From Verrucomicrobiia bacterium (GTDB lineage: Bacteria; Verrucomicrobiota; Verrucomicrobiia; Limisphaerales; DASXHY01): DNA of 42,111 nucleotides. Each line of letters opens with the position of its first letter. The first letter of the stretch is position 1. Shown here piece by piece: positions 8,484 to 42,111 of the stretch. The DNA lies in NCBI GenBank assembly GCA_035629175.1, contig DASPIL010000040.1:104255-146365 (forward strand), written 5' to 3'. The position numbers and the translations under genes were made by a program. The notes below the pieces were generated by a model. The model was not told where the DNA came from, ran no database searches, and saw nothing but the letters and a program-made list of their open reading frames with translations.

Positions 8484-9254
8484 TTGAAGATCGTGAATCC
8501 ATTGCTCAACGGCGTGGTCCTGAAAAACCGCCTGGCCTTCACCCTGATTGAACTGCTGGTAGTGATTGCCATCATTGCGGTGCTCGCTGCAATGCTGTTG
8601 CCCTCACTCTCACGCGCGAAATTCAAGGCGAAGGAAATCAGCTGCACCTCGAATTATCGCCAATGGGGCATCGTCACGAGCATGTATGCGGGCGATGACA
8701 AGCAAGGCAGGTTCCCTTCGTACCCTGTGCCAGGGTCCGGCCGGAATGCATGGGACGTGTCGATCGACATGGCGCCAGGCCTGCAGCCCTATGGCCTGAC
8801 AGCCCCACTCTGGTTTTGTCCGACGCGGCCCGCGGAATTCGATGAAGCCAACCGCTGGTCCCAATCCACATTGAACCGGCCGATCACATCCATCAACGAC
8901 CTCAATCGATATCTTGCGTCCCGCTTCAACAACACGTTCGCCATCCTCAACCATGCCTGGTGGGTTCCGCGGAGGAGTGGCGGCGTGCTGTTTCCGGCTC
9001 CCGGGGCGAACGCGCGACTGACCAATGGCTGGCCAACCCGGATCGAGGATGCCAGCGCCGCGATTCAGCCGATCCTGACAGATTATTGCTTTGCACCCGG
9101 GGAACAGAAGGACACTGCGCGGGCCGGCGCCGGGCATTCGATTGGCAACAAGGTCTTGTCCGTCAACCTCGCTTTTGCCGACGGGCACGTGGAAACCCGG
9201 CCTTTCAAGCAGATCCAGTGGCAATACTACGGGAATACGACTGCGTTTTACTAA
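8484..9254 (+). CDS. Prepilin-like protein with N-terminal methylation motif
   Basis: This 256-residue protein has a type IV pilin/type II pseudopilin N-terminus: a short basic leader, then A18-F19 with Glu at +5 (FTLIELL), then a hydrophobic helix. A prepilin peptidase would cut before Phe19 and methylate it. The C-terminal segment AGHS...FADGHVE resembles the H-x-DG signature of the large Planctomycetes/Verrucomicrobia pilin-like families, but with longer spacing between His and DG than the usual nine residues. The body has no enzyme motif. The apparent start is TTG 8484, with GTG 8493 as an alternative, only four bases after the PEP-CTERM stop, so co-translation is likely. Its role (surface fibre, secretion or envelope) is not determined. 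Confidence 0.88.
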
Positions 9255-9271
9255 AGCCAAAAACCATACAT

Positions 9272-9288
9272 TTGGCAGGCTGGCAGCC
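9272..9288 (+). promoter_or_regulatory. Weak sigma-54-like promoter candidate
   Basis: TTGGCAGGCTGGCAGCC has the GG-N10-GC spacing of a sigma-54 promoter (GG at 9274-9275, GC at 9286-9287). It matches the -24 element well and the -12 element poorly. It lies 74 bases before the ATG at 9362 in a 107-base gap, the largest between 7055 and 14484. A sigma-54 activator is encoded at the left of the window. The GGCTGGCAGCC core can also fold on itself, so the match may be chance. Confidence 0.22.
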
Positions 9289-9361
9289 TATCCCAAAATA
9301 AGCGATAACGGCTCTCCATCGCACAATTCCAAACCATGTTTCGGGTTCGCATTTTAAATTT

Positions 9362-10636
9362 ATGAAAACCTTCTCGCAGGCAGTGTCGATTCTTGGCCTC
9401 GCCGCGGCTCTCGTGCTGCCGGCTTCCGCCGTGCAGGTGACGTTTCAGGTAAACATGGAAGTGCAGGCGGCTCTTGGCCTTTTCGATCCGGGCAACGATC
9501 TCGTCTACATTGGCGCCTCCTTCAACGGATGGAGTGAGACCGCGTCGCAACTGTTTCCCACAACGACCAATGCCCTCGTCTATGAAGGCACGTTCGAAGT
9601 GGGCGCAGCGGGATCTTTTCCAAACTACAAGTTCATCAAAAACCGCTTCGGGGGTGGCGTTCAATGGGAGAACAATGGCGTCGGAGAGGGCGGAGCCCAA
9701 AACAGATTTTTCGAAGTACCCGCCGCCGATTCCGTGCTGCCCGTTGCCTGGTTCAACAACATCACCAACGTCAACGTGAACCACCAACTGGTGACGTTCC
9801 AGGTCAACATGTCCGTCCAGATTGCGCAGGGCACCTTCGATCCCGATAACGGCACACTTTGGATTGCCGGCGATGCCATCAATGACTGGGATGTCGATAT
9901 TTCGCCGATATCGCTGACACGCAGCCTAAGCGATACGAACGTGTGGACCACGACGCTGGACGTCACAAACCTCGTGGGCAGCACCGTGTCGTACAAATAC
10001 ATTCTCAACAGCACTTGGGAGACGATCGACAATCGAACATTCATCATGCCGTCCACGGCAACGAATCTGCCCGTTGTTTTTTTCAACAACGTGACGAACA
10101 CCGCCTCGCCCATTCCACTCACGTTCAGCGTGAACCTGGGCGTGCAAATCGCCCGAGGCAATTTCAACCCGGAAAACGGTGATGTGGTCGAGGTGCGCGG
10201 GTCCTTCCTCATGGGCCCGGGAAGCACCTGGCTCGGCGGCTTCGTCCTGACCAACGATCCCGCGAACCCGCTGATTTACAGCGGCACCATTGTCGACACC
10301 AACGACGCTGTCGGAAGCCAGGTTCAGTATCAATTCGTCCTCAACAACGGCACAACCTGGGAAGCCACTGGCAATCGGATTGCCACCCTCTCGACCACGA
10401 ATGCGGTCGCATTCCCGACAGCCTTTTTCAGCAACATCCCGGACCTTGGTGCGGTAACGGTCGAGACCATCGCCGCATCCGAAGCTGCGTTGAGTTGGAC
10501 TGCAGGGCCGCGTGTACGTCTGCAAAGTTCGGGCGACCTCACCTCCTGGAACAACGTCGCCGACACTGAAGGCCAGGCCGCCGTAAACGTCAACCTGAAC
10601 GAGAATGCGCGGTACTTCCGCCTGGTAGGACCTTGA
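9362..10636 (+). CDS. Secreted protein with three starch-binding-like repeats
   Basis: This 424-residue exported protein has a signal peptide ending near ASA-VQ (22-24). Three tandem copies of a beta-sandwich-like unit begin near residues 25, 144 and 253. Each opens with V/L-TF-x-VN-x-x-VQ, has an acidic 'F(D/N)P(G/D/E)N' turn and a W/G-rich strand, and the first two end in FNN(I/V)TN. The pattern resembles CBM20/CBM48 or SusE/F-type starch-binding modules. A short C-terminal module with LQSSGDLTSWNNV and a final YFRLVGP follows. No catalytic residues are evident. The galactanase starts about ten bases after the stop, so this is probably a binding partner that captures polysaccharide for it. 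Binding to galactan is inferred from neighbours only. Confidence 0.82.
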   Translation: MKTFSQAVSILGLAAALVLPASAVQVTFQVNMEVQAALGLFDPGNDLVYIGASFNGWSETASQLFPTTTNALVYEGTFEVGAAGSFPNYKFIKNRFGGGVQWENNGVGEGGAQNRFFEVPAADSVLPVAWFNNITNVNVNHQLVTFQVNMSVQIAQGTFDPDNGTLWIAGDAINDWDVDISPISLTRSLSDTNVWTTTLDVTNLVGSTVSYKYILNSTWETIDNRTFIMPSTATNLPVVFFNNVTNTASPIPLTFSVNLGVQIARGNFNPENGDVVEVRGSFLMGPGSTWLGGFVLTNDPANPLIYSGTIVDTNDAVGSQVQYQFVLNNGTTWEATGNRIATLSTTNAVAFPTAFFSNIPDLGAVTVETIAASEAALSWTAGPRVRLQSSGDLTSWNNVADTEGQAAVNVNLNENARYFRLVGP

Positions 10637-10646
10637 GGGTTGCGTG

Positions 10647-11939
10647 ATGGCGTTTGTGCAAAGAATCGTTTGGTCGCTGTTGGTCGCGGGCATCGTGGTC
10701 GCAACCAGTCACGTTTCCGGTGCGGAGTTCATCGCCGGAGCTGACATGTCGCACCTCCCGTTTTTTGAGAGCCGAGGCGTCGTTTATCGTGACAATGGTC
10801 AGGCCCGCGATGCTCTGGATCTTCTCAAGGTTCGCGGCATCAACTGCGTCCGCCTCCGTCTGTTCACCAGCAGCGCAGCACAGGCGGCAAACAATCCCTA
10901 CAACTACATCAACAACCTGGATTACACGCTGCCCCTCGCGATTCGTGCGAAGAATGCCGGGTTCCAGATCCTTCTCGATTTTCATTACTCCGATACCTGG
11001 GCCGACCCCGGCCATCAGCAGAAACCAGCCGCGTGGAGCGGCCTTACCTTTTCTGAGCTTGTGCAGCAGATGCGCAGCTACAACAGCAACACAATTGCTG
11101 CATTTGATGCCGCGGGTGTGATGCCGGAATACGTCCAGGTCGGAAACGAAATCACGGGAGGCATGCTGTTCCCCGATGGCGCCAACACCAACAGCTCCCA
11201 ATGGAACAAACTTGCGCAGTTGATGTCGGCTGCAATCAACGGCATCAAGGACGCCGCGGGAACAAACATGCCGAAGATTGTGGTGCACATCGATCGGGGA
11301 GCGCGCTGGGACACGACACAATGGTTTTTCGACAACCTGGCCCAGCGCTCCGTGCCATTCGATATCATTGGCCAAAGTTATTATCCATGGTGGCACGGCA
11401 CACTGCCGGCATTTGAGAATTGCCTGACCAACACGGTCCGGCGTTTCAACAAGCCGGTTCTGATCGCGGAGACTGCGTTTCCCTGGACGAATTCCACAAA
11501 CATCTTCGGCATTCCTGCAACGACGAACGGCCAGGTGGAATTCGTTGCCGAACTGGCGAAGATCATCAAGCGCCTGCCTCCCGGCAAGGCCGCGGGCGTT
11601 GTTTGGTGGGGAACGGAATACCAGCAGGTGAACGGCGTTCCCACCGCGAGTTTCCAGTACAAATCGTTCTTCCGAACGGGAGGAAATATCCTTCCTGTAG
11701 CAGCCGTGTTTGGCCAGCTGGCTGCGCCCGCGCAACTTCAGGCGGCCGCCGATCCCGCGGGCTTGCGGCTTGAATGGCCCGTCGGGGGCGCAGGCATGGA
11801 ACTGAGGAGTGCCTCGGGTCTGGATGTCGCCGACAACTGGTCGCCTGTGACAAACCCGGTGCAGAGCGCCGGCGGAACGTTCAGCACCGTCGTGCCGCTC
11901 GAAAGCGGGCAGCGCTTTTTCAGACTGGAAAAGAATTGA
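10647..11939 (+). CDS. GH53 arabinogalactan endo-beta-1,4-galactanase
   Basis: This enzyme hydrolyses internal beta-1,4-galactosyl bonds in type I (arabino)galactan side chains of pectin. It is 430 residues with a signal peptide (to about 26). GH53 marks are GADMSHLPFFE near 31, INCVRLRLF near 65, the signature LLDFHYSDTWADPG near 109-122, the acid/base Glu168 in VGNEI and the nucleophile Glu275 in LIAETAFPW. A C-terminal module of about 70 residues ends in RFFRLEKN. I prefer ATG 10647, because GAGGG (10635-10639) sits seven bases upstream, over GTG 10644. The gene follows the repeat protein by ten bases and precedes the GH2 gene by one base. Confidence 0.94.
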   Translation: MAFVQRIVWSLLVAGIVVATSHVSGAEFIAGADMSHLPFFESRGVVYRDNGQARDALDLLKVRGINCVRLRLFTSSAAQAANNPYNYINNLDYTLPLAIRAKNAGFQILLDFHYSDTWADPGHQQKPAAWSGLTFSELVQQMRSYNSNTIAAFDAAGVMPEYVQVGNEITGGMLFPDGANTNSSQWNKLAQLMSAAINGIKDAAGTNMPKIVVHIDRGARWDTTQWFFDNLAQRSVPFDIIGQSYYPWWHGTLPAFENCLTNTVRRFNKPVLIAETAFPWTNSTNIFGIPATTNGQVEFVAELAKIIKRLPPGKAAGVVWWGTEYQQVNGVPTASFQYKSFFRTGGNILPVAAVFGQLAAPAQLQAAADPAGLRLEWPVGGAGMELRSASGLDVADNWSPVTNPVQSAGGTFSTVVPLESGQRFFRLEKN

Positions 11940-11940
11940 A

Positions 11941-14484
11941 ATGAATCTTCGTTTGCGCCCTGCCCGGACGCTCTTCGCAGCGTTGCTGTTCGCAGCTTCT
12001 GCATTCGCCGAACGCCAAACAATCTCCTTCAATCCAGACTGGAGGTTCACGCGCGGCGATGCTGCCGCGGCAGAGCGGCCCGATTATGAGGATCAGCAAT
12101 GGGAAAGGGTCACGCTGCCGCATACCGCACGAGTGGAAGCCCTGGTTGCAGGAAAGAACTCCCCGCAATGGCAGGGTCTCTGTTGGTATCGCAAGGCTTT
12201 CACATTGCCCACGTCTGCAGCGGGAAAGGAAGTCGTTCTTCATTTCGAAGGGGCGATGAACACCGCTGAGTTTTGGCTGAACGGAGAATTCCTCGGCAGG
12301 CACATGGGAGGATATCTTCCTTGCGTGCTCGACATTTCAGCCGCGGTGCTGCCGGGCAAAACCAACCTGATCGCCGTCCGCCTGGATAATCGTGACAATC
12401 CAATCACAGGACCCAAGCCGCTGCCGGAACTCGACTTCAACCTGTATGGCGGCCTTTACCGCGGCGCCCGCCTGATCATCAAGGACCGGCTGAACATCAG
12501 CGATCCCATCCTCGCCAACAAAGTTGCCAGTGGCGGTATTTTTGTGTCGTTCCCTGCAGTTTCCAAATCTCAAGCAACAGTCCGCGTTCAGACGCACCTG
12601 CACAACAAGCACCAGGAATCGCGAAGGTTCCAGCTGCGCACCACCTTGCTGGATTTCCAAAATCGCGAGGTGATTCCATCAGAGTCCACCGGCCAAACGT
12701 TGCAGCCGGGTGAGGATCGCGAGGTCGTTCATGAGCTTGTGGTCGCCAATCCCCGGCTCTGGTCGCCAGGCGCTCCGCATTTGTACAACGTGCGAAGTGA
12801 AGTGCTCGCGGGTGAACACGTCGTCGACTCGGAAACCACGCGCATTGGAATCCGCCGCATCGAAATGACAAAGGACGGCTTTTGGATCAATGGTGAGAAG
12901 ATGTTCCTGCGCGGCGTGAATCGACACCAGGAATATCCATACATCGGCAACGCACTTTCCGACGCGGCGCAATTTCGCGATGCACTCAAGATCAAGTCAG
13001 CCGGGTTCGATTACATCCGGCTCTCACATTACCCGCAGTCCCGAGCCTTCATGAACGCATGCGACGAACTGGGGCTCGTGGTGATGAACTGCCTTATGGG
13101 CTGGCAATTCTTCAATAGCGATCCCGCCTTTGCCGAACTCAAGCTCAAAGAGTGCCGGGAACTGATCCGGCGCGACAGGAATCATCCTTGTGTGATTCTT
13201 TGGGAAACATCGCTGAACGAAAGCGCGATGCCGCGCGAATTCATCGCGCAAGCACAGAAACTTTCGCATGAGGAATATCCCGGCGACCAGATGTTCACCT
13301 GCGGCTGGACCCGGGGTTTTGATGTCTTCATCCAGGCACGCCAGCACGGCGGCTGCAAACGCGTCAGGGACATTCCGTGCCTCGTCAGCGAGTATGGGGA
13401 TTGGGAATATTTCGCGCAGAACGCAGGGCTCGAGCAACACCGCTGGAAGGATCTTCAACCCGCCGAGCGCAACAGCCGGCAGTTCCGCGGCGATGGCGAA
13501 ATCCGCCTCCTTCAACAGGCACTGAATTTCCAGGAAGCCCACAATGACAACCTGAAAACCACCGCCTTCGCCGATGGCTTGTGGGTGATGTTCGATTACA
13601 ACCGCGGATATGCCGAAGACATCGAAGGATCGGGCGTGATGGACATCTTTCGCCTGCCGAAATTCAGTTACTGGTTTTATCGAAGCCAGCGGACGCCAGG
13701 CGAGCCGCTTTGGAATGGAGCTGTGGAACCGATGGTGTTTATTGCGAACCATTGGACGGCTGAATCACCGCTGGATGTGCGCGTGTTCAGCAATTGCAAA
13801 GAGGTCAGCCTTTTTTTGAACGGCTTACTGGTGGAACGCCGGCAACCTGACACCGATCGGTTTTCCACAAACCTCAAACATCCTCCTTTCACTTTCACCC
13901 TGAAGGAATACAAGCCCGGCCAACTGCGCGCCGTCGGACATATCGGAAGCAGGGATGTTGCAAGCGCTGAACGCCGAACCCCGGGCGCTGCCACGCGAAT
14001 CCAACTGCAGTTTGATCTTTCCGGGAAACCGTTCGCGGCCAGCGGGAAGGATGCGGTGTTCTGCCATGCTGAACTTCAGGACAAAGACGGAACAACGGTT
14101 TCGATTCAACCCGAAGTGGCGTATGGAACGATGGGACCTGTGGCGTTCATGGGCACCAACTCGCTGTTCGCGGAGGCAGGGATCGCGACAGGGCTCCTGC
14201 AAACCGAAACTGCCAATCCTGAATGCGCGGTGTACGCGCTCACGATTGTGCCTGGAGAAAACCAGTGGCGCGTGATCGGCGCCGGTGGAACTCCGGGTGA
14301 CCGGGCCGTTCCCTCGTTTGAACTCCGCTACACGACCGATGGCACCGTGCCAACAAGCTCCTCACGGAAATTCACCCAACCTGTCCGCCAGTCGGAGACG
14401 ATCCACGCCGGATTGTTTGTGAACGAAAAACTGGTCGTCGCCGTCAAGGCAGCTTCAAACAATGGTCCCATGAGCTCGAACTAA
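11941..14484 (+). CDS. GH2 family beta-galactosidase-like glycoside hydrolase
   Basis: This 847-residue exported enzyme has a signal peptide (to about 23) and the GH2 layout. It runs sugar-binding jelly roll (about 25-190; HFEGAMNTAEFWLNG), immunoglobulin-like domain (195-300), TIM barrel (300-590; RGVNRHQEYPYIG), then C-terminal beta domains with a DUF4982-like part (about 605-680; VSLFLNGLLVERRQ). The likely acid/base is Glu427 in SLNES and the nucleophile Glu484 in LVSEYGDW. In GH2 these act on terminal beta-linked sugars. Pairing with an endo-galactanase one base upstream points to release of galactose from galacto-oligosaccharides. Glucuronidase or mannosidase activity cannot be excluded from sequence alone. 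Confidence 0.92.
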   Translation: MNLRLRPARTLFAALLFAASAFAERQTISFNPDWRFTRGDAAAAERPDYEDQQWERVTLPHTARVEALVAGKNSPQWQGLCWYRKAFTLPTSAAGKEVVLHFEGAMNTAEFWLNGEFLGRHMGGYLPCVLDISAAVLPGKTNLIAVRLDNRDNPITGPKPLPELDFNLYGGLYRGARLIIKDRLNISDPILANKVASGGIFVSFPAVSKSQATVRVQTHLHNKHQESRRFQLRTTLLDFQNREVIPSESTGQTLQPGEDREVVHELVVANPRLWSPGAPHLYNVRSEVLAGEHVVDSETTRIGIRRIEMTKDGFWINGEKMFLRGVNRHQEYPYIGNALSDAAQFRDALKIKSAGFDYIRLSHYPQSRAFMNACDELGLVVMNCLMGWQFFNSDPAFAELKLKECRELIRRDRNHPCVILWETSLNESAMPREFIAQAQKLSHEEYPGDQMFTCGWTRGFDVFIQARQHGGCKRVRDIPCLVSEYGDWEYFAQNAGLEQHRWKDLQPAERNSRQFRGDGEIRLLQQALNFQEAHNDNLKTTAFADGLWVMFDYNRGYAEDIEGSGVMDIFRLPKFSYWFYRSQRTPGEPLWNGAVEPMVFIANHWTAESPLDVRVFSNCKEVSLFLNGLLVERRQPDTDRFSTNLKHPPFTFTLKEYKPGQLRAVGHIGSRDVASAERRTPGAATRIQLQFDLSGKPFAASGKDAVFCHAELQDKDGTTVSIQPEVAYGTMGPVAFMGTNSLFAEAGIATGLLQTETANPECAVYALTIVPGENQWRVIGAGGTPGDRAVPSFELRYTTDGTVPTSSSRKFTQPVRQSETIHAGLFVNEKLVVAVKAASNNGPMSSN

Positions 14485-19683: not shown

Positions 19684-20895
19684 CTATTCTTCGCGCGAGA
19701 ATGCCAGGCCGAGCAGTTCTCCGCCAGTCACCTGCAACCGGCTGCCGTGAATCTCCGCAGACAATTGTTCAGTCTTGCCGTCAATCGTCACCGTGAACTG
19801 ATACGTCCCGCTCTGCTCCTTCCACTCGCCCTGGTTTGATTGGATATTCGGGGCAAGGGTGCCGGACCGGGCAAAAGGAATGCCCTTGAAGAATACCTGC
19901 TGCTCAGGCGTGACAATGAGAACTCCGCCCGACGCTGCCGCTGTCAAAAGCGCCTTGCGTTGCGCCATTTCTCTCGAGGACATCGTCGGCTTTTCGCGGC
20001 GAAACAGCCCCAGACTGCCGTTCACATCAAAAGTCCATCGTCCGAGGATCCGTTCCGTGTACTTTGTCGATGTTCCATTCGTAAGGAACCCGTGAAGATC
20101 CTTCAGGTTCGGCAAGATCGCCGATTCAATACTCTTAACAACCTCGCGGTTGTTCAAAATGGCCTGGACCTTCGGATATTTCAGCACCTCGGAAATAGAG
20201 GCGCCCTGCTCGCGCAACTGTGAGAACCCTTCGTCATTGGCGAGGTCCTGAAGCTCCGGCCGCTCCGCCAGACCAAGCAACCCGGGATAACGCTGAAGCC
20301 GCTGCTCCAACGCAGGTGTCTGGAAGAGCAGGCCCGCCACGTCGGCGGCATCATAATATTCAGCCGGCGTGTCATCGACGGATTTGGCGACTTTCGACAT
20401 TCCTGTCCCTTGCAGGTCTTTTCCGAGCCGATTCACCATGCGCACGCTCCGCGCATCGGAATCAGTCTGCGCCTGAAATGTCCAGTAGCTCAGCATGTAA
20501 ATCGCCTGCGAGACCAAAACCATGTATGCGATGGCATTCAAGGTGCCCAGGCACATTCCGAGCCTTGAATTCAACCGTTCCCAAAGTGCCAGCCGCAGAT
20601 CCCCCGCCTTGTATTTGTAATGAACTTCAACCTTCTTGTGGATGAACAGCCCCGCGACCTTCGAAAGGGTCAAGATAAGGACAAAGACCAACAGCGCAGG
20701 AACAAACCAAAGCAGGACGGGGTTCTTCATTCCTATCGCGCTGAACACCGGCTTGAGAAGATTTCCAATCGGTCCGGCGAGCAAAGTTCCGAGGACAATT
20801 CCCACAAACGACGCAGCCACGCGTATGGCACCTTGACGCAACCCGAGGCCAATCAACGAAGCCACCAGCAGCACGGCTAAAATCCAGATCGTCAT
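19684..20895 (-). CDS. CvpA-family membrane protein
   Basis: This 403-residue protein has about four transmembrane helices in the first 170 residues (LAVLLVASLIGLGLRQGAIR; GIVLGTLLAGPIGNLL; LWFVPALLVFVLILTLSKVAG; CLGTLNAIAYMVLVSQAIYM), matching the CvpA domain. That family was named for a factor needed for colicin V production and is linked to envelope stress. The C-terminal 230 residues are soluble, with no domain I recognise, and end in a beta-rich segment. CvpA proteins are usually near 160-200 aa, so this is an extended form. It lies 79 bases downstream of the hybrid kinase on the same strand and may be co-transcribed with it. Confidence 0.85.
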   Translation of the reverse strand: MTIWILAVLLVASLIGLGLRQGAIRVAASFVGIVLGTLLAGPIGNLLKPVFSAIGMKNPVLLWFVPALLVFVLILTLSKVAGLFIHKKVEVHYKYKAGDLRLALWERLNSRLGMCLGTLNAIAYMVLVSQAIYMLSYWTFQAQTDSDARSVRMVNRLGKDLQGTGMSKVAKSVDDTPAEYYDAADVAGLLFQTPALEQRLQRYPGLLGLAERPELQDLANDEGFSQLREQGASISEVLKYPKVQAILNNREVVKSIESAILPNLKDLHGFLTNGTSTKYTERILGRWTFDVNGSLGLFRREKPTMSSREMAQRKALLTAAASGGVLIVTPEQQVFFKGIPFARSGTLAPNIQSNQGEWKEQSGTYQFTVTIDGKTEQLSAEIHGSRLQVTGGELLGLAFSREE

Positions 20896-39006: not shown

Positions 39007-39043
39007 CCAACAATCCATTTCAGAACCTTTCAACGATTGTTGG
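39007..39043. repeat. Perfect inverted repeat between convergent genes
   Basis: CCAACAATC (39007-39015) and GATTGTTGG (39035-39043) form a perfect 9-bp stem with a 19-base loop in the 56-base gap between the sigma-fusion gene and the ATP-grasp gene. Neither strand has a T-run after the stem, so it is not a textbook terminator. It may still stop transcription from both sides. Confidence 0.5.
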
Positions 39044-39051
39044 AAAAAGTA

Positions 39052-40176
39052 TTAATCTGCTTTGGGCCGCGCCATGTTGTTGCTTTCGCCGGCCGCTGCT
39101 CTTCTGGAAAAGAATGGAAATCTTAAAGCCGGCCACCGCGTCTTCGGTCTCGTCGGCGGCGTTTTCCACGACGGCACAGGATGATCCGCAATAGGCAAAC
39201 ATCCAGAGCATGAAATGGAATTTTCGGCGCTAAGGTATGCTGCCAGTTCCGATGGCATATCCACGGCCGCAGCCCGAAAATAGGAAGCCACGACAATTGC
39301 AATCGTCCGGTGAACCGCTTCATTGCGATAAACCAGATCGCGCTTGGAAAAGTGGATGGAAGGGTACGGGTTGGCTTCCCAGATGATCGGCATGCCCCGA
39401 TGATCGAGGGAATAATCGAATGCGACAAAGTCCAGACCGAGCGCGCGTTTTGCCTTCTGAAATGCCGGGTGAAGACCGCACGGCGCATTGATGTAATTCA
39501 ATTCCTCGGACCTGGTGATGTCGTTGACCACCCGATTACGACCGCGCGTTATCCATCCATGAGACACCTGAAGGTGATGCGCCACGCCGAAATCACCGGC
39601 CACTACGTAGCGGTATTTGCGATAGAGTTTGTCTGTTGGGCTCGACGAATCGATTAACTCGACGGCAACGGGCCGCGTGAATTCCCGCAGCGGAATCTTG
39701 CGCGCCTCGTCAGGAGTATCAGCACGCACCATCTGCTTCCCATGGCCAAAATCCTCTCGAACGAAGAAAGGAAATTGCAATCCGAAGAAAGATTCATGAA
39801 AAGCTTGAGGGTCGGTGATCCGAAACGTTTTCGGAGTACGCAATCCCGTTTCCCTAATCAGCTCCGAACCCTGCAACTTGGCGGCCCGGCTTAATCGATC
39901 CACCCGATTGATAATCGGAATCCCAGCTTGATCACATCGCGCTCCCAATTCGACTGCATGGCGGTACGTTCTTCCGGACCACGCCTCAACGGGATCCTGC
40001 AACCATGGAATTAATAGTCGGTATTGGTTGGATGCGCGAAGACGGCAGGGCAATTTTGCGGTTTCGAATCGGGAACGATGCTCCGGCAGATTTTCCGCAA
40101 TCCAGTCCAATATTACATCATAGAAACCACGATAACGCCGGGCGTGATAAACAATCAGAAATTCGCAGGCCTTCAT
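39052..40176 (-). CDS. ATP-grasp fold protein (RimK/glutathione-synthase-like)
   Basis: This 374-residue cytoplasmic protein has the layout of an ATP-grasp ligase. It has an N-terminal pre-ATP region (to about 90; GIPIINRVDRLSRAAKLQG), a lysine-bearing strand (KTFRITDP, FPFFVREDFGHGKQMV near 135-150), an EL segment (RPVAVELIDSS near 168), and a magnesium-binding end with ALGLDFVAFDYSLD near 250 and IIWEANPYPSIHF near 268-280. Such enzymes join an acid to an amine or thiol using ATP. The last 60 residues are Arg/Pro-rich with no family similarity. It is the last gene of a three-gene operon with ATGA overlap. The substrate is unknown. Confidence 0.78.
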   Translation of the reverse strand: MKACEFLIVYHARRYRGFYDVILDWIAENLPEHRSRFETAKLPCRLRASNQYRLLIPWLQDPVEAWSGRTYRHAVELGARCDQAGIPIINRVDRLSRAAKLQGSELIRETGLRTPKTFRITDPQAFHESFFGLQFPFFVREDFGHGKQMVRADTPDEARKIPLREFTRPVAVELIDSSSPTDKLYRKYRYVVAGDFGVAHHLQVSHGWITRGRNRVVNDITRSEELNYINAPCGLHPAFQKAKRALGLDFVAFDYSLDHRGMPIIWEANPYPSIHFSKRDLVYRNEAVHRTIAIVVASYFRAAAVDMPSELAAYLSAENSISCSGCLPIADHPVPSWKTPPTRPKTRWPALRFPFFSRRAAAGESNNMARPKAD

Positions 40177-41153
40177 GGCATGTTGACCACTCGTCCTTCA
40201 GGGGAACCGTCTTCAAGCCGGGAGGCGAAGTATCTTCTCAGATAACGGTGCATTGCTGGCTTGTCCGTTGCCCACCGCCAGGCCCCATCTTTCCCCAGAG
40301 CAATATCCCTCTGCGGATCAAATTGGTGCTCCCGAAGGCCCCGATGTCTTTCTTGAGGCATGCGATCGCTCAACTCTCCATGCCAGAGATGAAGGACAGT
40401 GCCCGATATACAGGAAACCCTTTCCTGCACGTCGTTGTGAAAACGCAGCGCCCAGTCCTGATAATATTCGCGCTGGCGGGCATTCAGATGATGGAGTTCA
40501 ACCACGATCTCGGGCCGGTTAAACGCTGCGCAAACGAGGGCCGTATCGCCTCCGCCAATGATCGACGCGTCATACCATCCATGCCGTTCAAGCACCTCCC
40601 GGCGCGCGACCCACGCCATTCCGCTGGCCGGAGTTCCAGCCGCACGACGCATTACAGCTCGCATGAACCCTTCAAAGGATCCGCGTTCTGCCAAAGCAGC
40701 TCCCATCGCAGGTTGCGCGACCCATTCCGGATTCACTTCAAATCGTGATACTCGTGCTTCACGAGATGCGTGAACCACCCGGTTGAACGGTTGCAACAAA
40801 GGGACCCGCTGCAATTCCTTTACGGCGCGCTCGATCCATCCAGGATCGTGGAAGAGCAAATCGCAATCGACCCACGCCACGTACCGGCAGGATTCAGGCA
40901 AACGAGACAATCCGTGGTTAAGCAAACGTTCCTTCTGCCACATCACGTCACCATCGGAACATTGAATCAGGATGTCCGCGTCCCCTTCCTTCAGAACAAA
41001 CTCGCCTTCCTTTGCCAGCTCGACAGTGAGAAGCGGAGCGCCGATATGCTTTCGGAAATGTCGATAGTTGGCGAGGCGCCGTTCGTACCTGACAAAGTTG
41101 AAATACGTTGTGATGACCCACAACTCCGAGGAGGAACTGGCAGGCACGTTCAT
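40173..41153 (-). CDS. Glycosyltransferase-like protein (GT-A fold, DxD motif)
   Basis: This 326-residue soluble protein has no membrane segment. The N-terminus (LWVITTYFNFVRYERRLANY) and the segment YVAWVDCDLLFHDP near 90-103 carry the DxD-type acidic motif (DCD) of nucleotide-sugar transferases. GMAWVARREVLERHGWYDASIIGGGD near 177-202 resembles the acceptor-side loop with W and GGGD of GT-A enzymes. The C-terminal third is charged, with no domain I recognise. It overlaps both neighbours by ATGA, so it should act in the same pathway as the methyltransferase and the ATP-grasp protein. Sugar donor and acceptor are unknown. Confidence 0.78.
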   Translation of the reverse strand: MNVPASSSSELWVITTYFNFVRYERRLANYRHFRKHIGAPLLTVELAKEGEFVLKEGDADILIQCSDGDVMWQKERLLNHGLSRLPESCRYVAWVDCDLLFHDPGWIERAVKELQRVPLLQPFNRVVHASREARVSRFEVNPEWVAQPAMGAALAERGSFEGFMRAVMRRAAGTPASGMAWVARREVLERHGWYDASIIGGGDTALVCAAFNRPEIVVELHHLNARQREYYQDWALRFHNDVQERVSCISGTVLHLWHGELSDRMPQERHRGLREHQFDPQRDIALGKDGAWRWATDKPAMHRYLRRYFASRLEDGSPEGRVVNMP

Positions 41154-41815
41154 GGGAACAGCGTTTCCGCGGTCGGCTGCTTGCGCACCATGGTTAACCC
41201 ATCGCCATACGGAACGTCGAAAACCTGATACCGCACATCGCGTTTCAGCTCGTCCATAAGGTCGCGAACCCTGTGTTCGTAAGATTTGTCCGGTCCGTAG
41301 ATGCGTGAAGCGCGGACGACAATGCTATCGTGAAAAAATATTACTCCGCGTGCAGTAACCAGAGGTGCGAACGCTTCAAAATCGAACTTCGCCTGTTCAT
41401 AGGAATGATAACCATCAATAAACACCACGCCGATCTCACCGAGGGCGCGATATCCCGGTTGATTCACGAACTGCTGAGTGGTGGCACAGTGGTGTTCAAT
41501 ATTTGTAACTCCAAACTTTGCGAAGTGTGCCTGCACGGCGGCCGGTTCCCGCCAAAAGCCATCCACGAGCGCGGGGTCGATGAATTGCACGGTGCCATCT
41601 CCGTCGTCCGACAGCGCTCGTCCGATCATCAAGGGCGCGAATCCGCGGTAAGATCCAATTACGACGGCTGTGGCAGGCTTGACGATCCGCGTTATCCCGT
41701 AATACAGCCACCCCAATCCCAGGTTCGCGGTTTCCCGCCTTTGGCCATGCCCCATCTGGGTCATGACTTCGTGTTCCAGGATATTTCTTACCCAGGTATC
41801 AAATGGTGCCCTCAT
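41150..41815 (-). CDS. Class I SAM-dependent methyltransferase (Methyltransf_24-like)
   Basis: This 221-residue protein has a Rossmann-like SAM domain. VVIGSYRGFAPLMIGRAL near 51-68 is the glycine-rich loop, VQFIDPALVDGFW near 75 carries the acidic ribose-binding position, and VVFIDGYHSYEQAKFDFEAF near 130-149 followed by GVIFFHDS is the conserved metal/catalytic region of this group and of cephalosporin-hydroxylase-like methyltransferases. It is the first gene of the operon. The 176-base leader (41816-41991) holds a hairpin at 41846-41871, stem CCCGC-T-GGC/GCC-T-GCGGG without a T-run. No ribosome site is obvious. The substrate may be a glycan or peptide, not determined. Confidence 0.84.
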   Translation of the reverse strand: MRAPFDTWVRNILEHEVMTQMGHGQRRETANLGLGWLYYGITRIVKPATAVVIGSYRGFAPLMIGRALSDDGDGTVQFIDPALVDGFWREPAAVQAHFAKFGVTNIEHHCATTQQFVNQPGYRALGEIGVVFIDGYHSYEQAKFDFEAFAPLVTARGVIFFHDSIVVRASRIYGPDKSYEHRVRDLMDELKRDVRYQVFDVPYGDGLTMVRKQPTAETLFP

Positions 41816-41955
41816 AAAACGCGGAGGGTTTTACTGGCAGAATCCCCCGCTGGCAATGAAAAGCCTGCGGGAGCTCCGATGATTCGCGCGCCTCGACTGC
41901 ATGCCACTGCGTGATTACCCATCCGCCAGCTTGACTTCGAATTCAGTGTCGGTAA

Positions 41956-41985
41956 GAACGCGCAATGGGAGAACGCGCAATGGGG
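41956..41985. repeat. 15-bp tandem duplication
   Basis: GAACGCGCAATGGGA (41956-41970) is repeated directly as GAACGCGCAATGGGG (41971-41985), with only the last base different. It lies just after the stop of the truncated right-edge gene and outside any gene. Replication slippage is the simple explanation. Confidence 0.7.
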
Positions 41986-41991
41986 TCGCAT

Positions 41992-42111
41992 CTAAAACGT
42001 TGACAATTGCTTCTGAAGCTTCGCAACAAACCTCTGGCGCTCCGGGTCAGTCGCCAATAAAACTCCAAATCGCTTCACACCTTGTGCAGCCGCTTGATAC
42101 TTCACACCGAC
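41992..42111 (-). CDS. C-terminal end of an unidentified gene (cut by window edge)
   Basis: Thirty-nine codons and a TAG stop (41992-41994) are open to the window edge on the minus strand, in the same direction as the methyltransferase operon. The visible peptide (AAAQGVKRFGVLLATDPERQ, ending KQLSTF) is plausible coding sequence with normal base use for this region. It is too short to name a family. It lies 176 bases upstream of the methyltransferase gene and may belong to the same locus. Confidence 0.5.
   Translation of the reverse strand, partial: VGVKYQAAAQGVKRFGVLLATDPERQRFVAKLQKQLSTF

Follow-up and report, generated by a model that had tools for sequence, protein, structure and literature searches.

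What would a cell do with a methyltransferase, a glycosyltransferase, and an ATP-grasp-like ligase whose genes overlap one another? The three genes in question lie in a draft genome of a Verrucomicrobiia bacterium (assembly GCA_035629175.1; 5.4 Mb in 108 contigs), on contig DASPIL010000040.1, which we also call C40. We analyzed a stretch of 42,111 nucleotides (positions 104,255 to 146,365 of the contig), referred to here as the window, whose right edge is the exact end of the contig. A first-pass annotation, made from the sequence alone, had described the genes as an operon of unknown product and suggested a modified glycan, a glycopeptide, or a small secreted metabolite. Our best reading, by analogy, is that they form a glycan-tailoring cassette that would work like Cj1438 of Campylobacter. 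The main rival is that they modify a peptide, because a second locus for the same type of ligase in this genome resembles a peptide-modification cluster.

An operon of three overlapping genes

All three genes are on the minus strand. Gene 1 (41150..41815) encodes a class I S-adenosylmethionine (SAM)-dependent methyltransferase of 221 amino acids, gene 2 (40173..41153) a glycosyltransferase of 326 amino acids with a predicted GT-A fold, and gene 3 (39052..40176) a putative, remotely RimK-like ATP-grasp protein of 374 amino acids. Two ATGA overlaps on the same strand join the stop of gene 1 to the start of gene 2 (41150..41153) and the stop of gene 2 to the start of gene 3 (40173..40176). Both overlaps are intact, and codon usage favors all three frames across most of their length. 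The genes do form an operon through these overlaps, just as the first-pass annotation had it (open reading frames, or ORFs, at 41815..41150, 41153..40173, and 40176..39052), and the combination of enzymes is uncommon. The further claim that the three proteins are made in equal amounts goes too far: the overlaps suggest translational coupling of the three enzymes and speak for that only. Read by eye, none of the three products has an obvious membrane part.

The final ~60 codons of gene 3 (39052-39240) resemble a non-coding frame. Around 39230, within the stretch 39020-39240, a different frame takes over the codon signal. The ~60 residues at the end of gene 3 may therefore not form its true C-terminus (there may be a frameshift or an overlapping ORF).

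Gene 1 exceeds the Pfam cutoffs for both Methyltransf_24 (63.7 bits, cutoff 26.3) and Methyltransf_3 (28.3 bits, cutoff 22), and the nearest solved structures by sequence are O-methyltransferases (best E = 2.3e-4). Searching 97 relatives gave generic matches only, the best at 38.9 bits besides its own; a plasmid search gave one weak match at 27% identity; and no relatives were found in viral contigs.

Gene 2 scores below the Pfam cutoff for Glycos_transf_2 (PF00535; 15.5 versus 23.3 bits), and its profile does not match any sequence in the PDB. A structural model built from a 22-sequence alignment has a predicted local distance difference test (pLDDT) score of 87.8, and its closest solved folds are GT-A glycosyltransferases: the top match is 6p61_B (Z = 14.9, root-mean-square deviation 2.7, 175 residues), and many further GT-A enzymes match at Z = 12.5-14.2. 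Two motifs, D96xD98 and H255..H258G, are invariant across the 22 aligned sequences. The model has both marks of a GT-A enzyme, the fold and an acidic DxD motif (D96, D98). Going by this predicted fold, gene 2 is a GT-A glycosyltransferase of an uncatalogued family; no curated sequence model backs the assignment.

Gene 3 is more remote from anything known. It does not match any Pfam family up to E = 10, TupA-like ATP-grasp included. It scores 28.4 bits (E = 1e-6) against TIGR00768, the RimK family, whose cutoff is 143.4, and 21.6 bits against TIGR02144 (LysX), whose cutoff is 275.6; at E up to 1, TIGR00768 matches just one of the seven members of the gene 3 family. When we compared a profile of these seven members to E. 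coli RimK with hhalign, we obtained E = 0.0011 (probability 20.7, 191 columns), versus E = 0.35 for NfsA, a control; the LysX structure 3vpd gave E = 0.21. Residues R140, D254, E267, and N269 are invariant in all seven aligned members. In the RimK alignment, R140 takes the place of the lysine in PxVxK, and we take D254, E267, and N269 to correspond to metal-binding positions of ATP-grasp enzymes. From these alignments, it is likely but not proven that gene 3 is an ATP-grasp protein, very remotely RimK-like. The enzyme classes that had been proposed thus stand for gene 1 by its Pfam scores and for gene 2 by its predicted fold, while for gene 3 the likeness is remote and below every cutoff.

Where the relatives of genes 2 and 3 are found

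Relatives of gene 2 are scattered among bacteria and their mobile elements. We found them at five loci in Rhodothermia, Bauldia, and Sphingomonas, in four plasmid records, in one phage (XaC1, L051), in 23 viral contigs from IMG/VR (L028-L050), and in five other genomes among 387 of the phylum. The family is widespread in viral contigs, and some of its members have genes for sulfotransferases, epimerases, radical SAM proteins, or other glycosyltransferases nearby. We listed the neighborhoods of 16 of the 23 viral loci, omitting L032, L036, L037, L038, L044, L045, and L050 as near-copies, and scanned 61 of the 86 listed ORFs for families. (The 25 that were left out were mostly the longest, the spurious-looking, or the most distant, along with a second glycosyltransferase copy and all five ORFs of L047, a near-copy of L043.) These 61 neighbors, from 15 viral loci, include epimerase, methyltransferase, and glycosyltransferase families.

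Sulfotransferases occur as fusion partners or as neighbors of gene 2 relatives (L022 and L048). The fusion, to a Sulfotransfer_4 domain, is in genome G352 (L022, 4273-6174). In genome G286, a gene 2 relative comes right after a gene for an endolysin, in a region that resembles a prophage and includes tail genes (L026, 6459-8540), and it overlaps a Methyltransf_24 gene whose product resembles gene 1 only distantly. The same genome holds a gene 2 relative in another prophage-like stretch (L025). Two copies of the family are found in tandem in Bauldia (L006, 8085-10053) and also on one viral contig (L048, 7998-8888 and 10740-11633).

The gene 3 family is far smaller in our searches. Full-length or nearly full-length relatives occur at one more site in the same genome and in three other genomes, among 320 of the order, and using the second ligase as the query revealed relatives in two plasmids. 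Gene 3 itself does not match PDB sequences, plasmids, or phages; a scan of genome contigs gave 29 pattern matches and no relative; and scanning viral contigs with gene 3, with a two-sequence gene 3 profile, and with the second ligase gave no relatives. We did not count weak matches in G528, G637, G631, G619, G627, and G636 (24-38 bits, ORFs of ~490-536 amino acids), on contig C36 of this genome, G000 (23 bits), or in G607 (21.5 bits, with stops), G176 (52 residues), and G290, G307, and G334 (21-29 bits).

Some of the ligase genes lie near genes for glycans. At the second locus in this genome (L082), the stop of the ligase is at 9740 and the ATG of a classical family 2 glycosyltransferase (GT2) is at 9734, 5 bases apart; this GT2 scores 59.9 bits against PF00535. 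In G595 (L084), which belongs to a different family of the order, the ligase is followed 35 bases on by a shortened GT2 that, by eye, is similar to the one at L082. On a Paracoccus plasmid, the ligase is six bases after an oligosaccharide flippase, within a polysaccharide cluster that includes an O-antigen ligase and several glycosyltransferases. The loci in G043 and Deinococcus have no adjoining glycosyltransferase, and in G596 the glycosyltransferase side of the locus ends at the end of the contig. Altogether, a glycosyltransferase adjoins the ligase at two of the five loci with a visible neighbor, and a third is in a polysaccharide cluster.

The two families do not meet anywhere else. Of the 38 loci that carry a gene 2 relative, none also has a relative of gene 3, and the six other loci of the gene 3 family all lack a gene 2 relative; the flanks that we compared vary in length, and several stop at contig ends. 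The gene 3 matches in the 387 genomes do not include any of the five other phylum members that have gene 2 relatives, and neither do those in a draw of 288 genomes that may not include all five. The DNA of the operon does not match any plasmid, and among the papers that our literature searches listed, none concerned a methyltransferase, glycosyltransferase, and ATP-grasp trio of this kind. As judged from these sequences, the trio is unique to its own genome within everything we searched. The first-pass annotation had looked to other genomes for the three-gene set and named scattered homologues, never found together, as what would count against it. For the trio, this is largely what we see, and what recurs instead is weaker and more general: in two genomes, the ligase family adjoins another glycosyltransferase, of the classical GT2 kind.

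A glycan or a peptide?

If the three enzymes tailor a glycan, gene 3 would use ATP to activate a carboxylate, either of a sugar acid in the chain or of a small acid, and would link it to an amine as an amide. Gene 2 would transfer a sugar to the amidated residue or a neighboring one, gene 1 would cap a hydroxyl with a methyl group from SAM, and the overlaps would couple the translation of all three. Here we infer that all three enzymes act on one molecule, that this molecule is a glycan, and that the steps occur in this order. Gene 3 would also have to be active despite the arginine that replaces the lysine of RimK's PxVxK, and we presume that it is.

This reading is supported by the ATGA overlaps, the GT-A fold of gene 2, the position of the ligase family beside a GT2 or a flippase, the glycan-type genes near gene 2 relatives, and the precedent of Cj1438. 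Several observations weigh against it. The second ligase locus in the genome points to a peptide. The case for co-function rests on one operon, because the trio occurs nowhere else that we searched. A single-sequence structural model of gene 3 reached a pLDDT of only 33.5. And among the ten window genes that we scanned to the left of the operon, we did not find a polymerase, flippase, exporter, or nucleotide-sugar gene; on the right, the contig ends. On balance, we give not quite an even chance to the idea that the operon stands alone and serves to tailor a glycan on the cell surface. As had been suggested, the product is still best sought among modified glycans and glycopeptides.

The second ligase locus (L082, G000:C88:14000-29665) deserves attention in its own right. 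At 8916-12069 of this locus, a 54-amino-acid ORF and an HExxH gene are divergent from the ligase and its GT2. The HExxH gene exceeds the cutoff of TIGR04267, the alpha-ketoglutarate (aKG)-HExxH peptide beta-hydroxylases (94.7 bits versus 40). A like arrangement is found in G596 (L083, C58, 3-2193), with a 57-amino-acid ORF and an HExxH gene that scores 115.7 bits. The two small peptides have MK...LD-SKL-GF and GAK-type repeats in common. Their alignment scores 70, whereas 2000 shuffles reached 47 at most, and they are the top pair among 7410 pairs of small ORFs from the two loci (the next best scores 54); neither peptide matches NCBIfam. Such HExxH genes are uncommon in these genomes: this one has a single copy, 49 genomes of G595's family have one above the cutoff, and both are beside this ligase. 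HExxH enzymes have been found to hydroxylate the precursors of ribosomally synthesized and post-translationally modified peptides (RiPPs) (PMC12636437). In the literature, we found nothing on HExxH proteins in a RiPP context in verrucomicrobia, and for ATP-grasp, HExxH, and a precursor peptide together we found only work on microviridins. Judging by these sequences, the C88 locus and its counterpart in G596 look like an undescribed peptide-modification cluster.

Could the window trio do something similar? The ligase would add an amino acid or amine to an encoded peptide, gene 2 would glycosylate it, and gene 1 would cap it; the gene for the precursor would be elsewhere in the genome or lost past the end of the contig. 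In favor of such a RiPP-like pathway, the genome's other ligase sits beside a precursor-like peptide and an aKG-HExxH hydroxylase, the same is true in G596, and the two peptides align far above shuffled sequences. But the only HExxH gene of the genome lies at the C88 locus, and the window ligase is just ~21% identical to the ligase there. Also, no ORF next to the trio resembles a precursor gene. The sole candidate, at 41812-41991 (59 amino acids, with an ATGA junction with gene 1), is non-coding by codon usage, with a score of -0.15 (gene segments average 0.12 and off-frames -0.13); it has no NCBIfam match, and we rejected it. We consider a peptide substrate unlikely, although less so than any other alternative to a glycan.

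A broader idea would accommodate both loci: ligases of this arginine type might pair with glycosyltransferases on glycans and on encoded peptides alike, with the C88 peptide as the first of a hydroxylated, glycosylated, and ligated class, and the window trio as a methylating sister module. This is speculative, and we would bet against it a little more heavily than against a peptide substrate for the trio.

The end of the contig and the comparison with known systems

To the left of the operon are ordinary chromosomal genes, and to its right is a dispersed repeat. (Further left, at 19687-20895, the window encodes a 403-amino-acid protein with a CvpA-like Colicin_V production domain that barely passes the Pfam cutoff, 29.4 versus 29.3 bits.) The first-pass annotation saw no polymerase, transporter, or precursor, and this holds for the ten window genes that we scanned and for the surroundings of the trio; in the sequence up to the end of the contig, we found no linked precursor or exporter beside it. 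The product might instead be a small soluble or secreted metabolite, such as a methylated and glycosylated amide, that has nothing to do with polymers. The absence of polymer machinery among the ten genes and of obvious membrane parts in the three enzymes would fit. However, no scaffold synthase or exporter is visible, and the gene 2 and gene 3 families have their closest contexts in phages, in capsule-type loci, and at peptide loci. We think a small metabolite is quite improbable.

A minus-strand gene had been reported to end 176 bases upstream of the operon. What is there is an open end of 39 codons whose stop, at 41992, falls inside the end of the dispersed repeat (41972..42111, unstranded); the repeat is cut by the end of the contig and lies outside the operon. 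Because its stop falls within the repeat, this fragment is not supported as a member of the pathway, and we rejected it. The last 160 bases of the window have 29 matches in the genome up to E = 10. The further copies are 98.6-100% identical over 74-140 bases: 100% over 140 bases on C32, 99% over 138 on C83, 100% over 112 on C15, and 99% over 74 on C73. The last ~30 bases of the repeat, which end in GCGACCCCATT, are also present as inverted pairs on C73 (three pairs), C32, C61, and C19. The right flank of the repeat is on C40, C32, and C83 and the left flank is on C15; in the alignment, C15 and C83 extend further into the same element. From these matches, the repeat looks like a short mobile element, similar to a miniature inverted-repeat transposable element. 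Copies ending GCGACCCCATT lie within C73 and also at several contig ends (L114, L115, L116, L117, L118, L119). By eye, an ORF that adjoins the copy in L119 (868-1800) is transposase-like, and further genes on C15, likewise by eye, include those for an apparent amidase, citrate synthase, and succinyl-CoA ligase.

The least probable alternative is that mobile DNA assembled these genes into a newly acquired or decaying island and that selection has not favored them as a set. The operon borders ordinary chromosomal genes on one side and a dispersed repeat on the other, phages and prophages carry the gene 2 family, none of the other sampled genomes has the trio, and the coding signal fades in the last ~60 codons of gene 3. 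Against this, all three frames are open, much of their length has coding-type codon usage, and both stop-start overlaps are intact.

By itself, with neither a substrate nor a second example, the trio is of moderate interest. If our reading is right, it would point to two uncatalogued enzyme families, a HLWHG-type glycosyltransferase that is common in phages and an arginine-type, RimK-like ligase, and the C88 locus is a compact and testable candidate for a new peptide-modification pathway.

How does the operon compare with known systems? Graspetide and other ATP-grasp RiPP clusters also combine an ATP-grasp ligase and a methyltransferase in a small operon (PMC8939145). They differ in having a precursor gene, which we did not find beside the trio, and "glycosyl" is absent from the main text of that paper. 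The alpha-L-glutamate ligases RimK and LysX (TIGR00768, TIGR02144) share with gene 3 a weak, collinear alignment of 191 columns that includes the C-terminal E-x-N motif, but gene 3 is far below the curated cutoffs, and the lysine of RimK's PxVxK is an arginine in all seven members of its family. Finally, in Cj1438 of Campylobacter jejuni HS:2, a GT2 domain is fused to an ATP-grasp domain of the TupA-like type, which converts glucuronic acid in the capsule to an amide, and the amide is needed before the next sugar is attached (PMC11800379). Cj1438 is one polypeptide, whereas the window has separate overlapping ORFs and an added methyltransferase; gene 3 is remotely RimK-like with no Pfam ATP-grasp match, in place of the TupA-like domain; and gene 2 is under the Pfam cutoff for GT2. 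What the two appear to share is a glycosyltransferase that is physically coupled to an ATP-grasp ligase. If our reading is correct, then the operon would add a second, unrelated-looking type of ATP-grasp enzyme to the known couplings of ligases and glycosyltransferases.

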